DNA from: a virus
DNA length: 42,358 bases
Strand: one strand, 5' to 3'
Virus record (IMG/VR): IMGVR_UViG_3300046736_000221
Location: 1 to 42,358 of that record
Part shown: positions 15,997-25,168 of the stretch, in pieces
How the letters are laid out: the number at the start of each line of letters is the position of its first letter
How positions within the stretch are numbered: position 1 is the first letter of the stretch
Notes under the pieces: model-generated
Databases searched by the model: none
The model's input: only the letters and a program-made list of their open reading frames with translations
What the model was told of the DNA's origin: nothing
Made by a program: the position numbers and the translations under genes

Positions 15997-18734
15997 GAGG
16001 GGCCTCCCGGCGGGGGCAGCGGCGGGCCGCCAGGGCCATTGAGCGGAAAGGCCGACGCGCGTTGGGTCAGCTGGCCATAGGCCGTTGGGAGGCGGCCGGT
16101 GGCGAGGGACTGGCGGATGGCGTCGGCGGCCTGGGGATTGATGGGGCCGGCGGGTAGCGTGGGAGGACGTTGTTGGGGAGGAGGCATCATGGGCGGCCTC
16201 GGCGGCCCTGGAGGCATCATCGGCATGCCCTGGGGGCCTGGACGGGGCTGTTGGGGCGGTGGCGCGCCAACCGCCGGAGGTTGAGGGCTGGTGGGCGGCG
16301 GGAGATCGGACAGCAGACCCACCGCCGGGGCGTTGCTTTTCATTGCTTCTTTGAACTCGTCGAGCGAGGGGACGATCATGCCGGACGTAGCACCCGCCAC
16401 CCACGCCTTCACCCAGGCGTCGAGGGCGGCGCGGTCCCGCTCGCGATCGTCCTCCAGGAGGAGGGAAGCGCGTTTGGTTTGCTGATCCGCCCTGGTGTTC
16501 TCGATATCGGCCTGGGTCTTCTTGTTCTGAACGTCGGCCAGGATGAGGTCGGTGTTGGGCGGCGGCGGCGGCGTGGGGGGTGGGGCGAAGTCGGGCGGGA
16601 GGGCTTTGAAGTAGGACGAGATGTCGGCGATGTTCACCGTCTCCAGCATCCTGGCGAGGGTGTTGCGATACTCGGGGAGACCGACAAGGGGGTTGCTCAT
16701 GCCGCCCTGCTGGATGATCTGCTCCTGCTTCTGGGCGATCGCGGAGAGCATCTGGAGACGCTCCTGGGGCATGCCCTTGCCGCCGACATTGACCGAGGTC
16801 TCCCATTGCGTGGCCAGCGCGCGCGGGTCGATCGGGATCCACTTCTGGCGGATGCGGATGACGTTGGGCCGGTCCTGCTGCCGCGCCAGCATCTTCAGGA
16901 GGCCCTTGTAGAGCGGGGCCAGACCAGTCTCGGCCAGCGTGCGGGCCACCATGTCGAGGCGATCCTGGGCGGCCGATGACTGCTGAGAGACGGCGATCGG
17001 GGCGGTGGACTGGAGTTCGTCGACGGTCAGGCCGGAGGAGGCGCGCGTGATGCCGGTGCGTGATTCCCGAATGGTCTCGAGGACCTGCATGACGGGGAGG
17101 GCTTCCTTGCCCATGAAGGGCTTGGTCAGCTCCTGCACGGCGCCTTGCTGCGCCACGCGGATGATGCTGCCGATGGCGGTCTGGCGGGTGTCGGCGAGAT
17201 TGGCCTGGCCCACGACGACGGCCGTCCTCGGAAACATCGACTGACTGAGACTGTCCAGCACGCCGCGCATGACCCTTGATTCAATCCGTTGCAGGTCCAT
17301 CACCATGTCGGCCTGGGACTGGCCGACCACCCTGCCGGGCTCGCGATAAGGGGTGAAACAGGCCGCCGGGATCTCGTCGCAACGCTCCCACGAGACCAGG
17401 GTCTGGGACGCGCCGAGGAGATGGACGTGCAACAGTTCGGAGACGTTATCACCGTCCGCGTCACAGCGGATCCAACCCTCGACGTGGCGCACGATCGACT
17501 GGGACTTATCGTTGGGCGGGCTACCCGCGACATTGTGGCCCTGCGCGCCGGAGCGCGCGATGAGTTCGGCCCGCTGCCTTTGGGTGGCGCCGCGGCCGGA
17601 AGAGAGGTTGGAGAGGATCTTGTCTTCCGGCAGGCCCGCCTCGATCAGATCCGAGACGGTACTGTCCTGGACGATGAAGAACGCGCGGGCGGTCTCGACG
17701 GAGGTGGCGGAAGGATCGATCCAGCAGCACTCGGTGGGGACGTGGGAGACCTGGGGCCACGCCTGGGTGGCGCTCCGGGTGATCGTGGCGCTCCAGTACT
17801 CGGCGGGGGCGCCTTGCTGGAGATACATGCGGCCCTCGGGGGTTTTGGCGAGGGCCTGGGTTTCCGCCGGTGTCATGGGACGGCGGACGATGCGGCTGGC
17901 TTCGATACCGGGCTCGGAGAGCAGCATCTGGAGCTGCGGCAGCAGCAGACCGTGGGCGACCTCGGTCCTGGTGTGCTTCAGGGACCCCCAGTGCCACCTG
18001 ACCCAGCCGGCCTTGCGGGTCAGGGCATCGAGCAGGGCATCGTGCAGGATGGTCCAGCCGGGGTTGGCGGTGAACAACGCCCAGCGCGCGTAATCCGTCG
18101 CCTGTCTCGCGAGGGCGGTCGCCAGCTGGTCGTCCTGGGCGGTGGTGTGATCGGAGGAGAGGGGCTGGAAGGAAACCGGGTCCTCCACGCCGGTGAAGAT
18201 GCGCAGCATGGACGGCAGCGTCTGGCGGATGGTGTCGCGCACGACGGTCAGGGTGATGTTGCTGCGGCCCTCGATCTTCGGGGCGTCGGGCTCACCCGCG
18301 TAGTAATTCGAGGCGGTGACACGCTCGCGCGAGAGATACGCGTCGTAGTTCTGGGCGGCGCGAAAGTAGAACCGCGCGATGGCGTTGATCTCCACGTCGG
18401 TTTTACCGAGACGCTCGAAGACTATTTCCTGGGACCAGGGAGAGGCGGTCGGTTTGAGGGTCGGGCGCAGGCCGGCCGCGTAACGGCGGAGTTGAGGAGG
18501 GAGAGAGCTATCGGCGTCGGGCGGATCGTCGTCATGGGAGGGCGGCAGCAGGAACGCCAGCATCTGCTCGGAGGGGGAGGCGGACAGAGGGGTGGGCCGC
18601 ATCCCCTGGGGGATCAGGCCGGGGATGGGCGGGAGGGGGGTGGGCGTGTTGGGGTCGTTGATCTGTCGGGGGGCGAGGAGGCCGCCCTGGAGCGGGGGAG
18701 ACGGCTGGGGCGGCGGGGCGAGGGTGGTGCTCAT
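15993..18734 (-). CDS. Portal protein, P22 type
   Basis: 913 aa. After a Pro-rich N-terminus, the core carries portal hallmarks: EVIFERLGKTDVEINAIARFYFRAAQNYDAYLS, GRSNITLTVVRDTIRQTLPSMLRIFTG, then MVMDLQRIESRVMRGVLDSLSQSMFPRTAV. Middle helices (MVARTLAETGLAPLYKGLLKML) match the stem. The first about 740 residues equal the usual length of P22-type portals; the last 170 are a Pro/Gln-rich tail (PPPTSPQPPAVGAPPPQQPRPG and on), an extension. Its ATG overlaps the terminase stop by 4 bases (ATGA). It forms the dodecameric DNA channel to which adaptor and tail attach. Confidence 0.9.
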   Translation of the reverse strand: MSTTLAPPPQPSPPLQGGLLAPRQINDPNTPTPLPPIPGLIPQGMRPTPLSASPSEQMLAFLLPPSHDDDPPDADSSLPPQLRRYAAGLRPTLKPTASPWSQEIVFERLGKTDVEINAIARFYFRAAQNYDAYLSRERVTASNYYAGEPDAPKIEGRSNITLTVVRDTIRQTLPSMLRIFTGVEDPVSFQPLSSDHTTAQDDQLATALARQATDYARWALFTANPGWTILHDALLDALTRKAGWVRWHWGSLKHTRTEVAHGLLLPQLQMLLSEPGIEASRIVRRPMTPAETQALAKTPEGRMYLQQGAPAEYWSATITRSATQAWPQVSHVPTECCWIDPSATSVETARAFFIVQDSTVSDLIEAGLPEDKILSNLSSGRGATQRQRAELIARSGAQGHNVAGSPPNDKSQSIVRHVEGWIRCDADGDNVSELLHVHLLGASQTLVSWERCDEIPAACFTPYREPGRVVGQSQADMVMDLQRIESRVMRGVLDSLSQSMFPRTAVVVGQANLADTRQTAIGSIIRVAQQGAVQELTKPFMGKEALPVMQVLETIRESRTGITRASSGLTVDELQSTAPIAVSQQSSAAQDRLDMVARTLAETGLAPLYKGLLKMLARQQDRPNVIRIRQKWIPIDPRALATQWETSVNVGGKGMPQERLQMLSAIAQKQEQIIQQGGMSNPLVGLPEYRNTLARMLETVNIADISSYFKALPPDFAPPPTPPPPPNTDLILADVQNKKTQADIENTRADQQTKRASLLLEDDRERDRAALDAWVKAWVAGATSGMIVPSLDEFKEAMKSNAPAVGLLSDLPPPTSPQPPAVGAPPPQQPRPGPQGMPMMPPGPPRPPMMPPPQQRPPTLPAGPINPQAADAIRQSLATGRLPTAYGQLTQRASAFPLNGPGGPPLPPPGGPS

Positions 18735-20152
18735 ACCAGATCTCCCTGGGTCAGGCTCATGCGCAGTGGGGCTTTGTCGAACAGGCCGGAAGTCTGGCCG
18801 CTCGCGACACCGAGACCCTGCTCGCAGAACGTAAGGTTGAGCGCGTCGGCGTGATCGCAGCTGGGGAGGCCGCGAGAGCGCATCGATTGTTTGCTTTCGA
18901 CCTGAAGCCTGCCGTCGCTGAGGAAGGCATAGCGCGGCATCAAGAGGTCGTCGCGGAGGCGATCGTGGCGTGGCAGGCGCACGTTACGGTTGCCAAGCCA
19001 CTCCTTGCAGCGCACCCATAACTCGTCTCTAAGACGGGCATATCTACCGGTGGTTGAGGCTGTTTCGGAGACATTGACGCCGAGAATCGGCAGATTCTGC
19101 TCGTGCAGACGGTCGACGACGCCGGATCCGATACCGATCACGTCAATACATATGAGAGAGGGGCGGGTGGCTGGAGAGGCGATATCCCATTCGGCTTTGA
19201 TGGCGCCGGCCACTTGCATGGTATCCATGCCATGCCAGGCGCGCGGCATTTCGGTCACGACGCGGCCGCGGCGTTTCACGAGGACGGACGCGTCGGTGCC
19301 GAATCGGGCGATGTCGACACCCCAGATCTCGGCGGCGGTGGGATCGATCTCGATATCGCGCAGCATCGCGCTGTCGACCAGATCGGCGCCAATGAGGGTA
19401 TTATCGTCGGCGAGCGGAAACTCGCCGAGGACACGAACGCGAAAAGCGTTGGAATCCATGCCGTATCGATTGGCGACCTCGTTCACGAAATCCGACGTAA
19501 CGCGTGATGAGGAAGCGGAAGAGACCTTTTGGGTATACCAGCGATCGCGCTCCATCATGTGGGCGCGGTAGAAGAAGCCGGTACTACGTGTCGCGTTGCC
19601 GATCAGCAGCGTTATCGCGCCGTGAGAGGACATGCTGCCGGACGCGGCCTCGAAGACCGATTCCGGAATGCCGCTCGCCTCGTCGGCGATGAGAAGAACA
19701 TGGGCGCTATGGAGCCCCGCCATCGCCTCCGGCGTGTCGGGGCGGGAGGTTCTCGCGGTGACGAAACATTCCTGATCGGCTTTAAGCGTCACGCGATCAG
19801 ACCGAATATCCCACAGGTCGCGCCAGCCGGAGGGAAGAATGCTCAACCATTTAATGAACTCGGGCCACAACGCGTCGAACAACTGGGATGACGATGGCGC
19901 GGTGATGGCGACCTTGAACGGCGCGCGGGTGCAGATGAACCATACGCACAGCCACGCGGCGAAGCACGTCTTGCCCACGCCATGGCCGGAACGAATGGCC
20001 AGACGGGTGTGGCCGCGCGCGACCGCGCGCAGTGCCTCCAATTGCCACGGATCCGGCTCCGCGCCGAGAATGTCCCGCACGAAGGCGATCGGCGCGCGGG
20101 CATGTTTTTCAATCGCCGCGTGGAACGGGTTGGTTTCGAGGGTGGCACTCAC
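18731..20152 (-). CDS. terL: Terminase large subunit
   Basis: 473 aa. Walker A is SGHGVGKT (55-62) and Walker B is HVLLIADEAS (151-160, D157/E158). The nuclease domain has D280 in WGVDIARFGTDAS, D337 in CIDVIGIGSG and D433/D436 in SCDHADAL. The length equals the usual 450-500 aa. It packages DNA into the procapsid through the portal. The start is GTG at 20152, overlapping a possible upstream frame by GTGA; a TATAAT box 25 bases upstream may drive it. Confidence 0.95.
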   Translation of the reverse strand: MSATLETNPFHAAIEKHARAPIAFVRDILGAEPDPWQLEALRAVARGHTRLAIRSGHGVGKTCFAAWLCVWFICTRAPFKVAITAPSSSQLFDALWPEFIKWLSILPSGWRDLWDIRSDRVTLKADQECFVTARTSRPDTPEAMAGLHSAHVLLIADEASGIPESVFEAASGSMSSHGAITLLIGNATRSTGFFYRAHMMERDRWYTQKVSSASSSRVTSDFVNEVANRYGMDSNAFRVRVLGEFPLADDNTLIGADLVDSAMLRDIEIDPTAAEIWGVDIARFGTDASVLVKRRGRVVTEMPRAWHGMDTMQVAGAIKAEWDIASPATRPSLICIDVIGIGSGVVDRLHEQNLPILGVNVSETASTTGRYARLRDELWVRCKEWLGNRNVRLPRHDRLRDDLLMPRYAFLSDGRLQVESKQSMRSRGLPSCDHADALNLTFCEQGLGVASGQTSGLFDKAPLRMSLTQGDLV

Positions 20153-20176: not shown

Positions 20177-20182
20177 ATTATA
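20177..20182 (-). promoter_or_regulatory. Candidate terL promoter (-10 box TATAAT)
   Basis: A consensus -10 box on the minus strand, about 25 bases before the terL GTG start, which would leave a leader of about 18 bases. At the -35 distance the sequence is AT-rich but has no TTGACA match (ACACGT at 17 bp). An activator bound to the tandem repeats just upstream could compensate for this. Confidence 0.45.
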
Positions 20183-20289
20183 GTTGTTAATTTATCATAA
20201 CGTGTTTCGAATAAACTGGGAGGAATTTTTGAAGGAGTTGTTAATTTATCGTAACGTGTTTCGAATGAATTGGGAGGAATTTTTGAAGA
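20182..20289. repeat. Two tandem 54-bp imperfect direct repeats
   Basis: Copies at 20182-20235 and 20236-20289 differ at four positions. Each contains GTTAATTTATC(A/G)TAAC, an inverted repeat with arms GTTA/TAAC, then TTCGAA and GGGAGGAATTTTTGAAG. The 54-bp spacing is about five helical turns, so proteins bound to both copies would lie on one DNA face. They adjoin the terL promoter candidate, so activator, operator or packaging sites are all possible. Confidence 0.85.
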
Positions 20290-20324
20290 GGGTGCCAGTG
20301 CCATGCCCCTACGCGCGGGCAGGG

Positions 20325-20371
20325 GGGCGGGCGCCCGCCCGCGCGCCTGGGCACGCATGCGCGCGCATGCG
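20325..20371. repeat. Two GC-rich palindromes, cruciform- and Z-DNA-prone
   Basis: GGGCGGGCGCCCGCCC at 20325-20340 is a 16-bp perfect palindrome. CGCATGCGCGCGCATGCG at 20354-20371 is an 18-bp perfect palindrome within a 22-base strictly alternating purine-pyrimidine run (20351-20372). Such DNA can form cruciforms or Z-DNA. The placement between terminase genes suits a packaging signal. Confidence 0.75.
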
Positions 20372-20425
20372 CCCGGTCGGGCGATCATGCTGTGTGTGAC
20401 TTGACGTTTGGCATCGGCCACCTGT

Positions 20426-20999: not shown

Positions 21000-21011
21000 G
21001 GTCTGGTCAAT

Positions 21012-21039
21012 CAGTCAAACAGCTCAACCAGTCAAACAG
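21012..21039. repeat. Two 11-bp direct repeats CAGTCAAACAG
   Basis: Copies at 21012-21022 and 21029-21039, 17 bp apart, with a shorter related AAACAG after them. They lie in the leader of the plus-strand unit, after the promoter candidate and just before the ribosome site, so they could bind a repressor or an RNA-binding protein. Confidence 0.6.
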
Positions 21040-21050
21040 GACAAACAGCC

Positions 21051-21869
21051 ATGATCGTTTACCAAGGTCCATCGATGCTGACCGGCGAGCCCATCGTGAT
21101 GATAGTCACGGGCTTCAAGGGATCGTCAAACAAGAAGACCGGAGCGGAATTGCTTCAAACCTATATCCTCCGTGACGACATGCACCCTGTTGAAGCGTCA
21201 CGTACCGGCGCCGACAAGGCGATTTGCGGTGATTGCAAACATCAGGGCAAGCATGACGATGAGGGCATGCGGATTGAGAAATCGCGCGAGTGCTACGTCA
21301 ACCTCGGCCAGGGTGTTTCTGTCGTCTATAAATCCCACGCTCGCGATCATTATGAGACATGCACCGAAGCGGACCTCGCTGATACGTTCGAAGACCTGTT
21401 GATCCGCTTCGGCACCTATGGCGATCCGGCCGCCGTTCCCCAACGGATCTGGACGGCCATGGTAAGCAAGAGCGCTGGCCGCACTGGCTACACGCATCAA
21501 TGGCGTGATGCCCGTTTCGCCTGGCTGAAGGCGTACGTCATGGCGTCGGTTGATACACTCGAGGAAGCCGCCGAAGCCCAGGCGATGGGCTGGCGTACGT
21601 TCCGCGTCGCGCCGCCGGTTGGCTGGACCAGGGAAAAGACCGAAGCACTGTGCCCGGCGTCGGAGGAAGCTGGCAAGCTGCTACAGTGTCAGGACTGCCA
21701 GATTTGTTCTGGTCTGGAAGGTAAGGGGACGCGGAATGTCGTGATCCCGAACCATTCCACGAGCGGCCGGGCGGCCAAGAGGCGGGCGAGGATCGTCCAC
21801 CCCACGCCGCGTGCCGGGAAAGCGAAGCCGGCTGGCGTGACATTCAAGCGGAATGGAGTCGCGGCATGA
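21051..21869 (+). CDS. Conserved phage/plasmid protein with Cys clusters, unknown function
   Basis: 272 aa. The sequence has the family marks TYILRDDMHPVEASRTGADKAICGDCKHQG, then ECYVNLGQGVSVVYKSHARDHY and RFGTYGDPAAVPQRIW, and SAGRTGYTHQWRDARF. Two CxxC pairs and more Cys (CGDC; CPAS; CQDCQIC near 220) suggest zinc or iron-sulfur binding. It ends in a basic tail (SGRAAKRRARIVHP). Homologous proteins of this form are common in phages and plasmids of actinobacteria and proteobacteria but have no known role. It overlaps the next gene by ATGA and has its own promoter candidate. Confidence 0.75.
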   Translation: MIVYQGPSMLTGEPIVMIVTGFKGSSNKKTGAELLQTYILRDDMHPVEASRTGADKAICGDCKHQGKHDDEGMRIEKSRECYVNLGQGVSVVYKSHARDHYETCTEADLADTFEDLLIRFGTYGDPAAVPQRIWTAMVSKSAGRTGYTHQWRDARFAWLKAYVMASVDTLEEAAEAQAMGWRTFRVAPPVGWTREKTEALCPASEEAGKLLQCQDCQICSGLEGKGTRNVVIPNHSTSGRAAKRRARIVHPTPRAGKAKPAGVTFKRNGVAA

Positions 21870-22143: not shown

Positions 22144-22168
22144 AAAAGGCGCCTTCGGGCGCCTTTTT
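22144..22168. terminator. Bidirectional intrinsic terminator
   Basis: AAAAGGCGCC, TTCG loop, GGCGCCTTTTT: a perfect hairpin with a UUCG tetraloop and A/T runs on both sides. It ends the plus-strand unit (21051-22123) and, read from the other strand, the minus-strand ruvC-like gene that stops at 22168-22170. Confidence 0.9.
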
Positions 22169-22611
22169 CATTTGTCCAGGATATTCCGCCACCCCCACCA
22201 CGCCAACAGCACCGCGTCCGCCTCGTCATGGGTCAACGCCCGCTCCGGGTCATGGAGCAGCTCCCGCGCCAGGGCGATCCCGGCCGCCTTGCCCGCCGCG
22301 CCTCCCCCGAGCCCGTAGGAGCCCCTCCAGACCGAAGGCTGGACATATTCCACCCTCGGATGGGCGAGGACCGCCAACGCGCCTCGGACGCCGCCGTAGG
22401 CCATCCCAAGGTTGAAAGCGGACCGTACGCCCATCTGGGGAGAGGCGTGTTGCGCCTCCACCACCACGAGCGCCGCCGCCGCCGCTGTTCGCGCCAGCCC
22501 CTGGCCTTGATCGATCGCGCCCACACGGCATTGGGTGATGACGCCCGCCCCTACTCGTATCAACGCCGCCGCCCCATTCATGCCGGGATCGATCCCAAAA
22601 ATGAGGGTCAT
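22168..22611 (-). CDS. RuvC-like Holliday junction resolvase
   Basis: 147 aa. The RNase H-fold motifs are D8 in FGIDPGMNGA, E52 in LVVVEAQHA, and D129/D132 in THDEADAVLLAWW. The QPSVWRGSYGLGGGAAGKA loop with K108 is typical. The length is near the usual 160. Resolves recombination or replication junctions so that packaging is not blocked. It is preceded by the candidate origin and follows the primase-helicase in the same direction. Confidence 0.85.
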   Translation of the reverse strand: MTLIFGIDPGMNGAAALIRVGAGVITQCRVGAIDQGQGLARTAAAAALVVVEAQHASPQMGVRSAFNLGMAYGGVRGALAVLAHPRVEYVQPSVWRGSYGLGGGAAGKAAGIALARELLHDPERALTHDEADAVLLAWWGWRNILDK

Positions 22612-22626
22612 AATTTATCTTTTAAC

Positions 22627-22736
22627 AATTCCTGCCACTTCCTGCCATGGTCACCGCAATAGTGTTCACACGTGCGCGCGCGCACATACATGTAAGACGC
22701 CTTTCGTTTATAGGGTGGCAGGAGTTGGCAGGAATT
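22627..22736. repeat. Candidate replication origin: inverted paired iterons around an alternating Pu/Py tract
   Basis: Two copies of TTCCTGCCA (22629-22637 and 22639-22647) are mirrored by two copies of TGGCAGG with AA(T) ends (22716-22722, 22727-22736). The arms are 21 bp with 2 mismatches. Between them 22667-22694 is a strict 28-base alternating pyrimidine-purine run with the palindrome GTGCGCGCGCGCAC at 22672-22685. It lies in a 133-bp gap between the primase-helicase and the resolvase, which is a natural place for an origin. Confidence 0.5.
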
Positions 22737-22744
22737 GCGTAATG

Positions 22745-25168
22745 TCAAAAGTCTCCAGGGGCTTTATTCGTCGTGGCGTCACCGCCCACGACCGTCGCCC
22801 CTTTCACTTCAACCCCACAAACAACGCGGACGTTATCGATTCTCGCGTAGTAAATTCCTTTGATTTTCTCCAACATCCCCCGCAGGCGGCGACTATCGGT
22901 CACCTCTTCCCCATTTTCCCTGCACCAGTCCTGAAAACTCCGCAGAAGTGCCGCCGGCGTGGATTTCAACCCCCAACCGAGGTTGCACCGGTCCTCCACC
23001 CAACGCCCGAAGAAATCCTGCGACTCGAAATAATCATCCGTCGCCGCCGAAACCGAGGCGGGCGCGCCAAGGCCCACCCGTTGCCATTCCAGGCACCCAT
23101 TGATCATCCACCGGAGGATAGCCCCCCATTCCGCTTTCAACTTCTCGGACAGTTCCACATCCGGCACGGCGGGCCGGCGCGTGAATGGCACGATATTGAA
23201 CCGGCGGCGGGTGGAGTTATCCACCCCCCGCAGCGCGGGCTTGTGATTGCCGCTGATGGTCAGCTTGAACCGTGGGACGAACGTGAAGTTATCCTGGCGC
23301 ATGAAACGGGCCGTTATCGGATCTCCGCCGGTCACCGCCTTGATGCGCGCCTCCGCCCATGTTTGTCCTTCCTCCACCTCCGACGCCATGACCATCCGCG
23401 CGCCATCCAGCATGGCCAGGTCCGTTGAATGCTTATCACCGCGTGTCACGGTGAACGTTTCCATGGCGGCGTTCACCGCGTGGTCTCCCAGGATTCCGAA
23501 AATGGTGTTCATGACGACACCTTTTCCGTTCCCGCCGTCACCGTGGATGAATACCAGCGCGTGCTCGCGGGTTATTCCGGTCAGGCAATAGCCAAACCAC
23601 CGTTGGAGAAATCCGATCATCCCGGCATCGCCACCGGTCGCTTCCTCCAGGAACGTCAGCCAAAGGGGGCAATCCTCCCCCATGGCGGGCGCGACGGCCG
23701 TCAGGCGGGTGATGTAATCCTCTGGGCGCGCCTCTCTCGTCTTCCCCGTCCGCAGGTCGATGACGCCCTCCGGCGTGCCAAGCAGCCACGCATCGCTGTC
23801 CCACACCTCATGCGTGACCGCGAACGCTTCTCCCGCCTGGGCCAGCCGCTCCACCCCGGCGGCGAAGGCGGCCTTACCGGCCCGCACCGCGATGTTGGCC
23901 CCTTTCCCCCGCGCCAGCCGCCGCGCTTCCGCGTGCGCCCAGCGGTAGGCCAGCTTCGTCTCTTCCCGCTTCCACCGTGTACCGTCCCACAACGACCATT
24001 TGCCGCGTGTGTGATCGAACCGCAGCCGCTCCGCGTGCGCCGCCGTGAACGCATCCGCCGTGTTCCCCTCGGTGACGACCGACCCTTTTCCGTCACCACC
24101 AGCCGGGGTCCCGCCGGCTACCGACTCCCCCCGCCCTCTCCGTGATGGCCTCACCCATCCAGGCTGGGCCTTCTCGGCCTCGATCATCAGTTTTCCGATT
24201 CCGATATGATCACCGGGATGGCGCTTCCAGTATTCCCAGTGGTCACGGCAGTCGTCGGCGCCTTTCTGGTTATGCCTGCCGCTTTTCGCGGACCACTTCT
24301 CAAAAGCCGCGTATGCCTCCTCGCTTCCACGGCTGGCGTTCACCGTCGCCAACCCCATGGCCATCCAGTCATTCCAGTGCAGATCATCGTTCGGGATGAT
24401 CTCCAGGGCCGCGATCGCGTCCTCGAGGTGCCCCCGCAAGGAGAGCCCATCGTCATCGGCCCGCGTCACCGTCCCCTCGATCGTTTTCCGCTCGTCCGCC
24501 CGCTCCATCAGCCACCCGACGATCTCGTCAATTCCAACCGTGCAATCCCCCTCTCCGTCCCACCCGGTCACCGTGATGAACCGGGCACAGGCGTGGAATA
24601 TCTCCACCGCCGCGTCCGCCCGTACCCTCCCGTCACCCCACCACGCCCGCTCCTCGGCGTTCTCCGGCCCCTCCAGCCCTTTGACCCACTCTCCCACCCG
24701 CAGCACGCCCTGAAACGCCTCCAGGCCCCCTCCAGGGGCCGCCAGGCGCCCGATGATCCGTATCCCCGTCCCCGAGGGCGTCACCTCCCAATAAGCCCCT
24801 GGCGCCGCCGCCAGGATCGCCAGTGCCCAGCCGTCCACCTTCCCCGTCCGGGGGTCCCGACAATGATCGATATCGATGGCCGCGCGCCCGAAATCGTCTT
24901 TCATGCGCCAGCCGACACCAGCGGCGCCTTCGGCCTCCACCGCCGCCACCGCCACGTCGTGGCCGACCACCCCTTCCAGATCGTTGACCCTGACATTTCT
25001 CCCCGTTCCGGGGATGACCGGAACCTTGGTCTTACCCTTCGTCCCGTCCTTCCGCTCGATGACGCGCCAGTACCAGAGGCACCACCGCTCTTCCCTCAGC
25101 ATCGCGGCCAACCCCGGTATGTCCCGCAGGTTCATTCCGCGTGTTCTGTCTTCGTTCTTTGGCATCAT
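22745..25168 (-). CDS. Primase-helicase: AEP-type primase, PriCT-2-like segment and D5-type SF3 helicase
   Basis: 807 aa. The N-terminal primase-like domain has DID at 99-101 (AAIDIDHC) and VTPSGTGIRII (129-138). A PriCT-2-like segment is at about 245-335 (LEDAIAALEIIPNDDLHWNDWMAMGL). The D5-N region starts near 380. The helicase has Walker A GDGGNGKG (543-550), Walker B with MVMASEVEE (592-600), LTISGNHKP (637-644) and arginine-rich NSTRRRF (651-657). It likely primes and unwinds at the adjacent origin candidate. The start is ATG at 25168 with GAGAGG just upstream. Confidence 0.9.
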   Translation of the reverse strand: MMPKNEDRTRGMNLRDIPGLAAMLREERWCLWYWRVIERKDGTKGKTKVPVIPGTGRNVRVNDLEGVVGHDVAVAAVEAEGAAGVGWRMKDDFGRAAIDIDHCRDPRTGKVDGWALAILAAAPGAYWEVTPSGTGIRIIGRLAAPGGGLEAFQGVLRVGEWVKGLEGPENAEERAWWGDGRVRADAAVEIFHACARFITVTGWDGEGDCTVGIDEIVGWLMERADERKTIEGTVTRADDDGLSLRGHLEDAIAALEIIPNDDLHWNDWMAMGLATVNASRGSEEAYAAFEKWSAKSGRHNQKGADDCRDHWEYWKRHPGDHIGIGKLMIEAEKAQPGWVRPSRRGRGESVAGGTPAGGDGKGSVVTEGNTADAFTAAHAERLRFDHTRGKWSLWDGTRWKREETKLAYRWAHAEARRLARGKGANIAVRAGKAAFAAGVERLAQAGEAFAVTHEVWDSDAWLLGTPEGVIDLRTGKTREARPEDYITRLTAVAPAMGEDCPLWLTFLEEATGGDAGMIGFLQRWFGYCLTGITREHALVFIHGDGGNGKGVVMNTIFGILGDHAVNAAMETFTVTRGDKHSTDLAMLDGARMVMASEVEEGQTWAEARIKAVTGGDPITARFMRQDNFTFVPRFKLTISGNHKPALRGVDNSTRRRFNIVPFTRRPAVPDVELSEKLKAEWGAILRWMINGCLEWQRVGLGAPASVSAATDDYFESQDFFGRWVEDRCNLGWGLKSTPAALLRSFQDWCRENGEEVTDSRRLRGMLEKIKGIYYARIDNVRVVCGVEVKGATVVGGDATTNKAPGDF

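Follow-up and report, generated by a model that had tools for sequence, protein, structure and literature searches.

The intergenic element described here—two pairs of tandem iterons in inverted orientation around a centred alternating purine/pyrimidine tract—is very probably a replication origin, with its iterons serving as binding sites for the AEP-SF3 primase-helicase encoded beside it, as judged from its sequence and from comparison with relatives and known origins. It lies in a complete virus record of 42,358 bp, which was analysed at full length and is referred to below as the window. Across the relatives that we compared, the architecture of the element is conserved and its literal sequence is not. 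On this reading, a single odd repeat becomes a recognisable origin type in about 150 non-redundant loci, drawn from phages, prophages of Alphaproteobacteria and some Desulfovibrio.

Layout and setting of the element

Features of the element and its surroundings are listed in Table 1. The initial annotation had reported a unit occurring twice and then its complement twice, around a 28-base alternating tract with a 14-bp palindrome, and the coordinates confirm this arrangement; they likewise verify that the element fills the gap between the primase-helicase and resolvase genes (22612–22744, 133 bp). Two details were amended: the arms carry two mismatches, as had been stated, and are 22 nt long (not 21 bp), separated by 68 nt; and three of the four iterons are exact, while the fourth is imperfect. 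The centre of the tract (22680.5) falls within 1 bp of the dyad, as given by the centre of the spacer (22681.5). The AT-rich stretch before the RuvC-like gene contains a GATAAA motif common to the window and its relatives.

Table 1. Positions of the element, its parts and the adjoining genes (positions refer to the window unless a locus is named).
Feature	Position	Strand	Description
Whole element, proposed replication origin	22626–22737	.	112 bases; inverted tandem-iteron pairs flanking a spacer
Resolvase-side arm	22626–22647	.	Two tandem 10-bp units; TTCCTGCCA on the + strand at 22629–22637 and 22639–22647
Primase-side arm, inverted copy	22716–22737	.	Units TGGCAGGAG (22716–22724; complement of TTCCTGCCA with one mismatch, CTCCTGCCA) and TGGCAGGAA (22726–22734; exact complement of TTCCTGCCA)
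Alternating purine/pyrimidine tract, Z-DNA-prone	22667–22694	.	28 nt
14-bp palindrome within alternating tract	22672–22685		GTGCGCGCGCGCAC
Spacer flank, resolvase side	22648–22666	.	GC 0.47
Spacer flank, primase side	22695–22715	.	GC 0.48
AT-rich 14 bp, arm to RuvC-like start codon	22612–22625	.	GC 0.07
AEP-type primase fused to D5/SF3 helicase (PriCT_2, D5_N, DUF5906), proposed initiator	22745–25168	-	807 aa
C-terminal winged-helix domain, proposed iteron reader	22805–23014	-	Residues about 719–788, AF2 model
RuvC-like Holliday junction resolvase gene	22168–22611	-	Adjoins element; linkage not in all relatives
Second origin-like class behind swapped helicase	L011 7608–7740; L012 7617–7750

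A pair of 22-nt arms with at least 20 matches and a gap of 20–140 occurs only here in the 42 kb window and was absent from 12 first-order Markov windows, in which the longest alternating tracts measured 14–21 nt, against 28 nt in the window. The 9-mer TTCCTGCCA, with one mismatch allowed, is not enriched in the window (10 observed, 7.7 expected); the unusual feature is the arrangement of the 9-mers, not their frequency.

Pfam and PHROG matches identified the gene beside the element as AEP/PriCT_2 plus D5_N/SF3. In an AlphaFold2 model of its product (pLDDT 91), a D5-like SF3 helicase is followed by the winged helix, and a Foldseek search with this model matched the helicase half to ASFV C962R and poxvirus E5/D5. 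The primase-helicase also matched 7OLA/7OM0 (4e-15), which we take to be the SaPI5 primase-helicase. The best fold matches of the C-terminal domain alone were weak—the RFX DNA-binding domain (E 0.0015) and the C962R tail (E 0.015). From the model and from the co-variation described below, we propose that the C-terminal winged helix reads the iterons.

Three other features were observed in the window. A 53-bp sequence occurs as two tandem copies (20182–20288, spacing 54) that are 94% identical; they lie a short way upstream of the terminase gene (18731–20152, - strand) and are a candidate packaging or regulatory site. Beside the same gene lies a very GC-rich near-palindromic stretch (20304–20372) that includes another long alternating tract, of 22 nt (20351–20372), and two tandem 17-nt copies, TCAATCAGTCAAACAGC and TCAACCAGTCAAACAGG, occupy 21007–21040, directly before a + strand gene (21051–21869).

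Layout and units in relatives

Scans with the primase-helicase and with the resolvase, neither of which used the repeat, yielded over 200 loci; the 184 non-redundant relatives were gathered mainly via the primase-helicase and never via the repeat. For the family as a whole, each locus was scored by its best 18-nt inverted repeat within 400 bp surrounding the primase stop, with a threshold of at least 15 matched positions. This was reached in 154 of the 184 loci (and not in the other 30), against 6/170 and 2/162 control stretches from the same loci. Alternating tracts of at least 12 nt were present in 152/184 loci, against 6/170 and 7/162 controls, and in 132 of the 154 loci with an inverted repeat the spacer contains an alternating (CG/CA)n tract, whose centre falls at 0.51 ± 0.05 of the spacer. 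The arms repeat with a tandem period of 9 in 68 loci and 10 in 42, other shifts lying near the shuffled level. Convergently oriented units number about 2.3 per side, whereas shuffled units give 0.4. Across the family the spacer measures about 55–75 bp; the most AT-rich part of the element is the first 20 bp inside each arm (AT about 0.5, against 0.41 overall), and its centre is GC-rich and alternating. Set against a classic iteron origin, in which an AT-rich unwinding element adjoins the iterons, these flanks are no more than moderately AT-rich.

The hosts of integrated copies are mostly Acetobacteraceae, Methylobacterium, Bradyrhizobium and Sphingomonadales, with some Desulfovibrio. Outside the set of 184, Acidithiobacillus phage AcaML1 has every part of the plan, the CG tract among them; inverted or repeated units without a CG tract were seen in Patt, TM4, Listeria LP-030-2 and the satellite Javan397, and the layout is absent directly after the primase in the actinophages CroZenni, Ashes and Yang.

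The units vary widely in sequence among phages, even where the proteins are 81–88% identical. Four relatives (L003, L004, L005 and L049) have a gap of nearly the same length as the window, with near-identical flanks and core, and arms that are wholly different (GGGCAGGGAAGGGCGGGTCA vs TTCCTGCCAACTCCTGCCA) and still inverted; further different units occur in L002, L006, L007, L009 and L065–L067, and the units of individual loci scatter around the consensus GTGACGGAT. An exact pattern search of viral contigs for the window's own iterons gave no match, which at first appeared to be a refutation and is explained by iteron turnover. The initial annotation took absence of the repeat from close relatives as grounds for refutation. 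As literal sequence it is missing at this level of protein identity; in substance the objection fails, because an equivalent element built from other units occupies precisely that position.

Arms that stay perfect or near-perfect although their letters change would also suit a structure-based origin of the kind proposed for pRN1, in which the arms act by forming a hairpin or cruciform through pairing, instead of being bound as iterons by a protein. Pairing extends past the units in three loci (L003, L004 and L006), the single-strand fold predicted for the element is strong (z −5.1) and pRN1 replication needs stem symmetry. A hairpin has no need, however, of a tandem period of 9–10 within its arms; left and right unit numbers are unequal in 76 of 136 loci; inverted units stand at hairpin-spoiling spacings in L048, L162, L182 and L224; and spacers, here given as 50–80 bp, would make cruciform extrusion costly. 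We regard a hairpin origin as unlikely, and prefer to read the units as binding sites for the primase-helicase.

Window units and those of relatives align in part in both orientations. When the spacer cores of the window's sub-clade are compared with those of L002 and L006–L010, the match is better as the reverse complement in 24/24 comparisons, which are non-independent. Relative to the primase gene, the core has opposite orientations in these two sub-clades, as if flipping between inverted arms.

Association with the primase-helicase gene

Other functions can be envisaged for an inverted repeat in this position. As an operator, it would serve transcription control by the primase-helicase or another regulator, with replication starting elsewhere; inverted operator pairs are common in phages and self-regulation is frequent among initiators. 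The element nevertheless lies behind the initiator gene and not in front of it, has no promoter match and persists while the downstream gene differs between relatives, and we consider this role very improbable.

Also very improbable is a function in the primase-ruvC transcript, as an attenuator, terminator or stabiliser made of RNA, which would fit a position between two co-directed genes and a predicted RNA fold that is stable. Reversal of the core relative to the gene between sub-clades suits a DNA function and not an RNA function; in addition, there is no terminator or promoter match at the element and no Rfam match, the next gene varies, and in 24 of 154 loci the primase coding sequence ends within the arm, overlapping its iterons.

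The RuvC-like gene directly adjoins the element in the window, L003, L004, L049 and AcaML1, and an interrupted palindrome with a Z-prone centre might be a cruciform target or recombination site of this resolvase, for example in concatemer resolution. The linkage to the resolvase gene that would mark a RuvC-type resolvase site was not found, however: in L002, L006, L007 and L009 extra genes separate the element from RuvC, and the element stays beside the primase. A natural swap bears on the same point. In L011 and L012, the first ~350 primase residues are 69–74% identical to those of the window, while the helicase half belongs to another family (phrog_29234, no D5_N) and the element to another class, with 3+3 inverted units TGCGGGTAT, a core AAAAACAC..TTTGGTTTTT (GGTTTTT) and no CG tract. 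The RuvC-like gene stays while the class of element changes with the helicase half. This natural exchange links the element to the helicase half of the enzyme, and a resolvase site becomes hard to believe. Across the sequences compared, it is the primase-helicase gene that the element accompanies, and not that of the resolvase.

Two further candidates were rejected: a mobile element (MITE), as no target-site duplication flanks the arms, and N15-like telomere resolution, as the arm dyad and the palindrome centre lie 3 bp apart and the arms are direct repeats.

With overall identity removed, similarity of iterons and similarity of winged helices gave a partial r of 0.20 (0/500 permutations), while three other regions of the enzyme showed no such correlation (about 0). 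In a strict set of 54 representatives below 65% identity, the effect was modest (r 0.14, 0/400 permutations, z 2.6); it was strongest in the recognition helix and wing and absent in the C-terminal tail, which lies nearest the element, and this absence argues against mere linkage. A stretch of the helicase half (181–240) also reached z 2.0 in the strict set. Among the closest relatives of the window the recognition helix hardly varies although the iterons differ, so specificity would have to sit in the wing. We judge the sequence evidence for co-variation good but not overwhelming.

The consensus GTGACGGAT (136 loci) has GT-N-A-C in common with what we take to be the RFX half-site, and the best fold match of the proposed reading domain is the RFX DNA-binding domain; the resemblance may be coincidence.

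In five of six genomes the GC skew reverses sign close to the element, its cumulative curve having a maximum 0.6–2 kb away; in the sixth the maximum is 11 kb away. The check proposed in the initial annotation thus gives a maximum, whereas a simple bidirectional origin should show a minimum; by the usual rule for leading strands, a GC-skew maximum would mark a terminus. We take the skew as ambiguous because late genes begin near the element. That the origin is bound by the primase-helicase, as first suggested, is what we infer as the best-fitting reading of the comparative evidence.

Proposed mechanism and comparison with known systems

In the mechanism that we propose, the C-terminal winged helix of the primase-helicase would bind both units of each arm and two SF3 hexamers would assemble face to face across the dyad (compare the C962R dodecamer). 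ATP hydrolysis would melt the more AT-rich 20 bp beside each arm, and the primase domain would then lay primers, allowing two forks to depart. The centred tract probably absorbs negative supercoiling by a B-Z transition, or spaces the two hexamers; this step is the weakest, and only the position and composition of the tract point to such a role. The iterons and the winged helix would change together in sequence, giving each phage its own origin address. Our wider proposal—that a precisely centred Z-DNA-forming tract replaces the AT-rich unwinding zone usual in the middle of SF3-initiator origins, as a supercoil-driven switch or as a spacer for head-to-head hexamers, and that a broad family of bacterial phages and prophages rapidly rewrites its iteron code together with the winged helix, leaving each with a private origin—is tentative, and we hold it with less than even confidence.

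On these readings, origins could be called by sequence alone in many unannotated phages, and the family would offer numerous naturally matched initiator domains and DNA sites from which to learn how winged-helix specificity changes. The centred tract makes the long-standing idea of Z-DNA at origins testable, and rapid turnover of origin addresses would bear on phage competition (compare origin-based resistance and origin-directed nucleases). A search of the open-access literature for Z-DNA or alternating tracts at phage origins returned nothing relevant; within that literature, what looks new is a Z-DNA-prone tract at the centre, together with how widely the interchangeable iterons turn over.

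In other respects the element resembles known origins. Phage P4 alpha combines a fused primase, an SF3 helicase and a C-terminal winged-helix origin-binding domain, and its origin has iterons; the window enzyme is like it in domain plan and iterons, with a link in fold through the C962R tail. P4 differs in its Toprim primase, in type I iterons that are arranged otherwise and in having ori and crr separate. ASFV C962R is a double hexamer (dodecamer), and its tail resembles the P4 alpha origin-binding domain (PMC10516667).

Two features of the downstream-origin class of AEP-SF3 (D5-type) initiators, an initiator gene directly upstream and iterons in the gap behind it, are found in the window. 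SaPI origins lie directly behind AEP/SF3 initiator genes (PMC7581432). In SaPI (Rep helicase or SaPI5 primase-helicase) and in the putative SCCmec Cch2 origin, iterons just downstream of the initiator gene are bound by its C-terminal domain, and the SaPI5 enzyme is a sequence relative of the window primase-helicase; these systems, compared with the element by their descriptions, differ in having multiple iterons and no described centred alternating tract. In Streptococcus phage Sfi21 (AF115103), the annotated origin of replication/phage inhibitory sequence likewise comes right after a D5-like primase gene and has 2+2 inverted tandem 8-bp units (TAGTTACTTAGTTACT ... AGTAACTAAGTAACTA) about 71 bp apart, but its spacer is AT-rich without a CG/CA tract, its period is 8 and its primase is only distantly related. 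The RepA/origin pairs of PLE, satellites of Vibrio cholerae, are similar in that the origin varies together with the DNA-binding domain, both being exchanged as one module, and differ in their unrelated initiator fold and semi-palindromic iterons of about 30 bp. The Bartonella run-off replication origin was set aside as lambda-like and not comparable.

The origin of pRN1 from Sulfolobus, too, directly follows its AEP/SF3 initiator gene, and members of its family have, within conserved flanks, a stem-loop that keeps its symmetry but not its sequence, a feature also predicted for Bordetella phage BIP-1; Rep of pRN1 did not bind its own stem-loop specifically in vitro (PMC4234260). A scan after the primase of Bordetella phage BPP-1 found no 2+2 iteron layout. 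The window enzyme shares with pRN1 an initiator made of AEP, SF3 and winged helix and an inverted element of about 100 nt directly behind the gene, and the window's element family likewise has conserved flanks around an unconserved symmetric element of ~100 nt. It differs in its tandem units of period 9–10 and its alternating tract, whereas for pRN1 a stem-loop lacking iterons is reported and there is no alternating tract. The stem-loop origin of pRN1 and the iteron origins of SaPI and P4 could be read as one layout.
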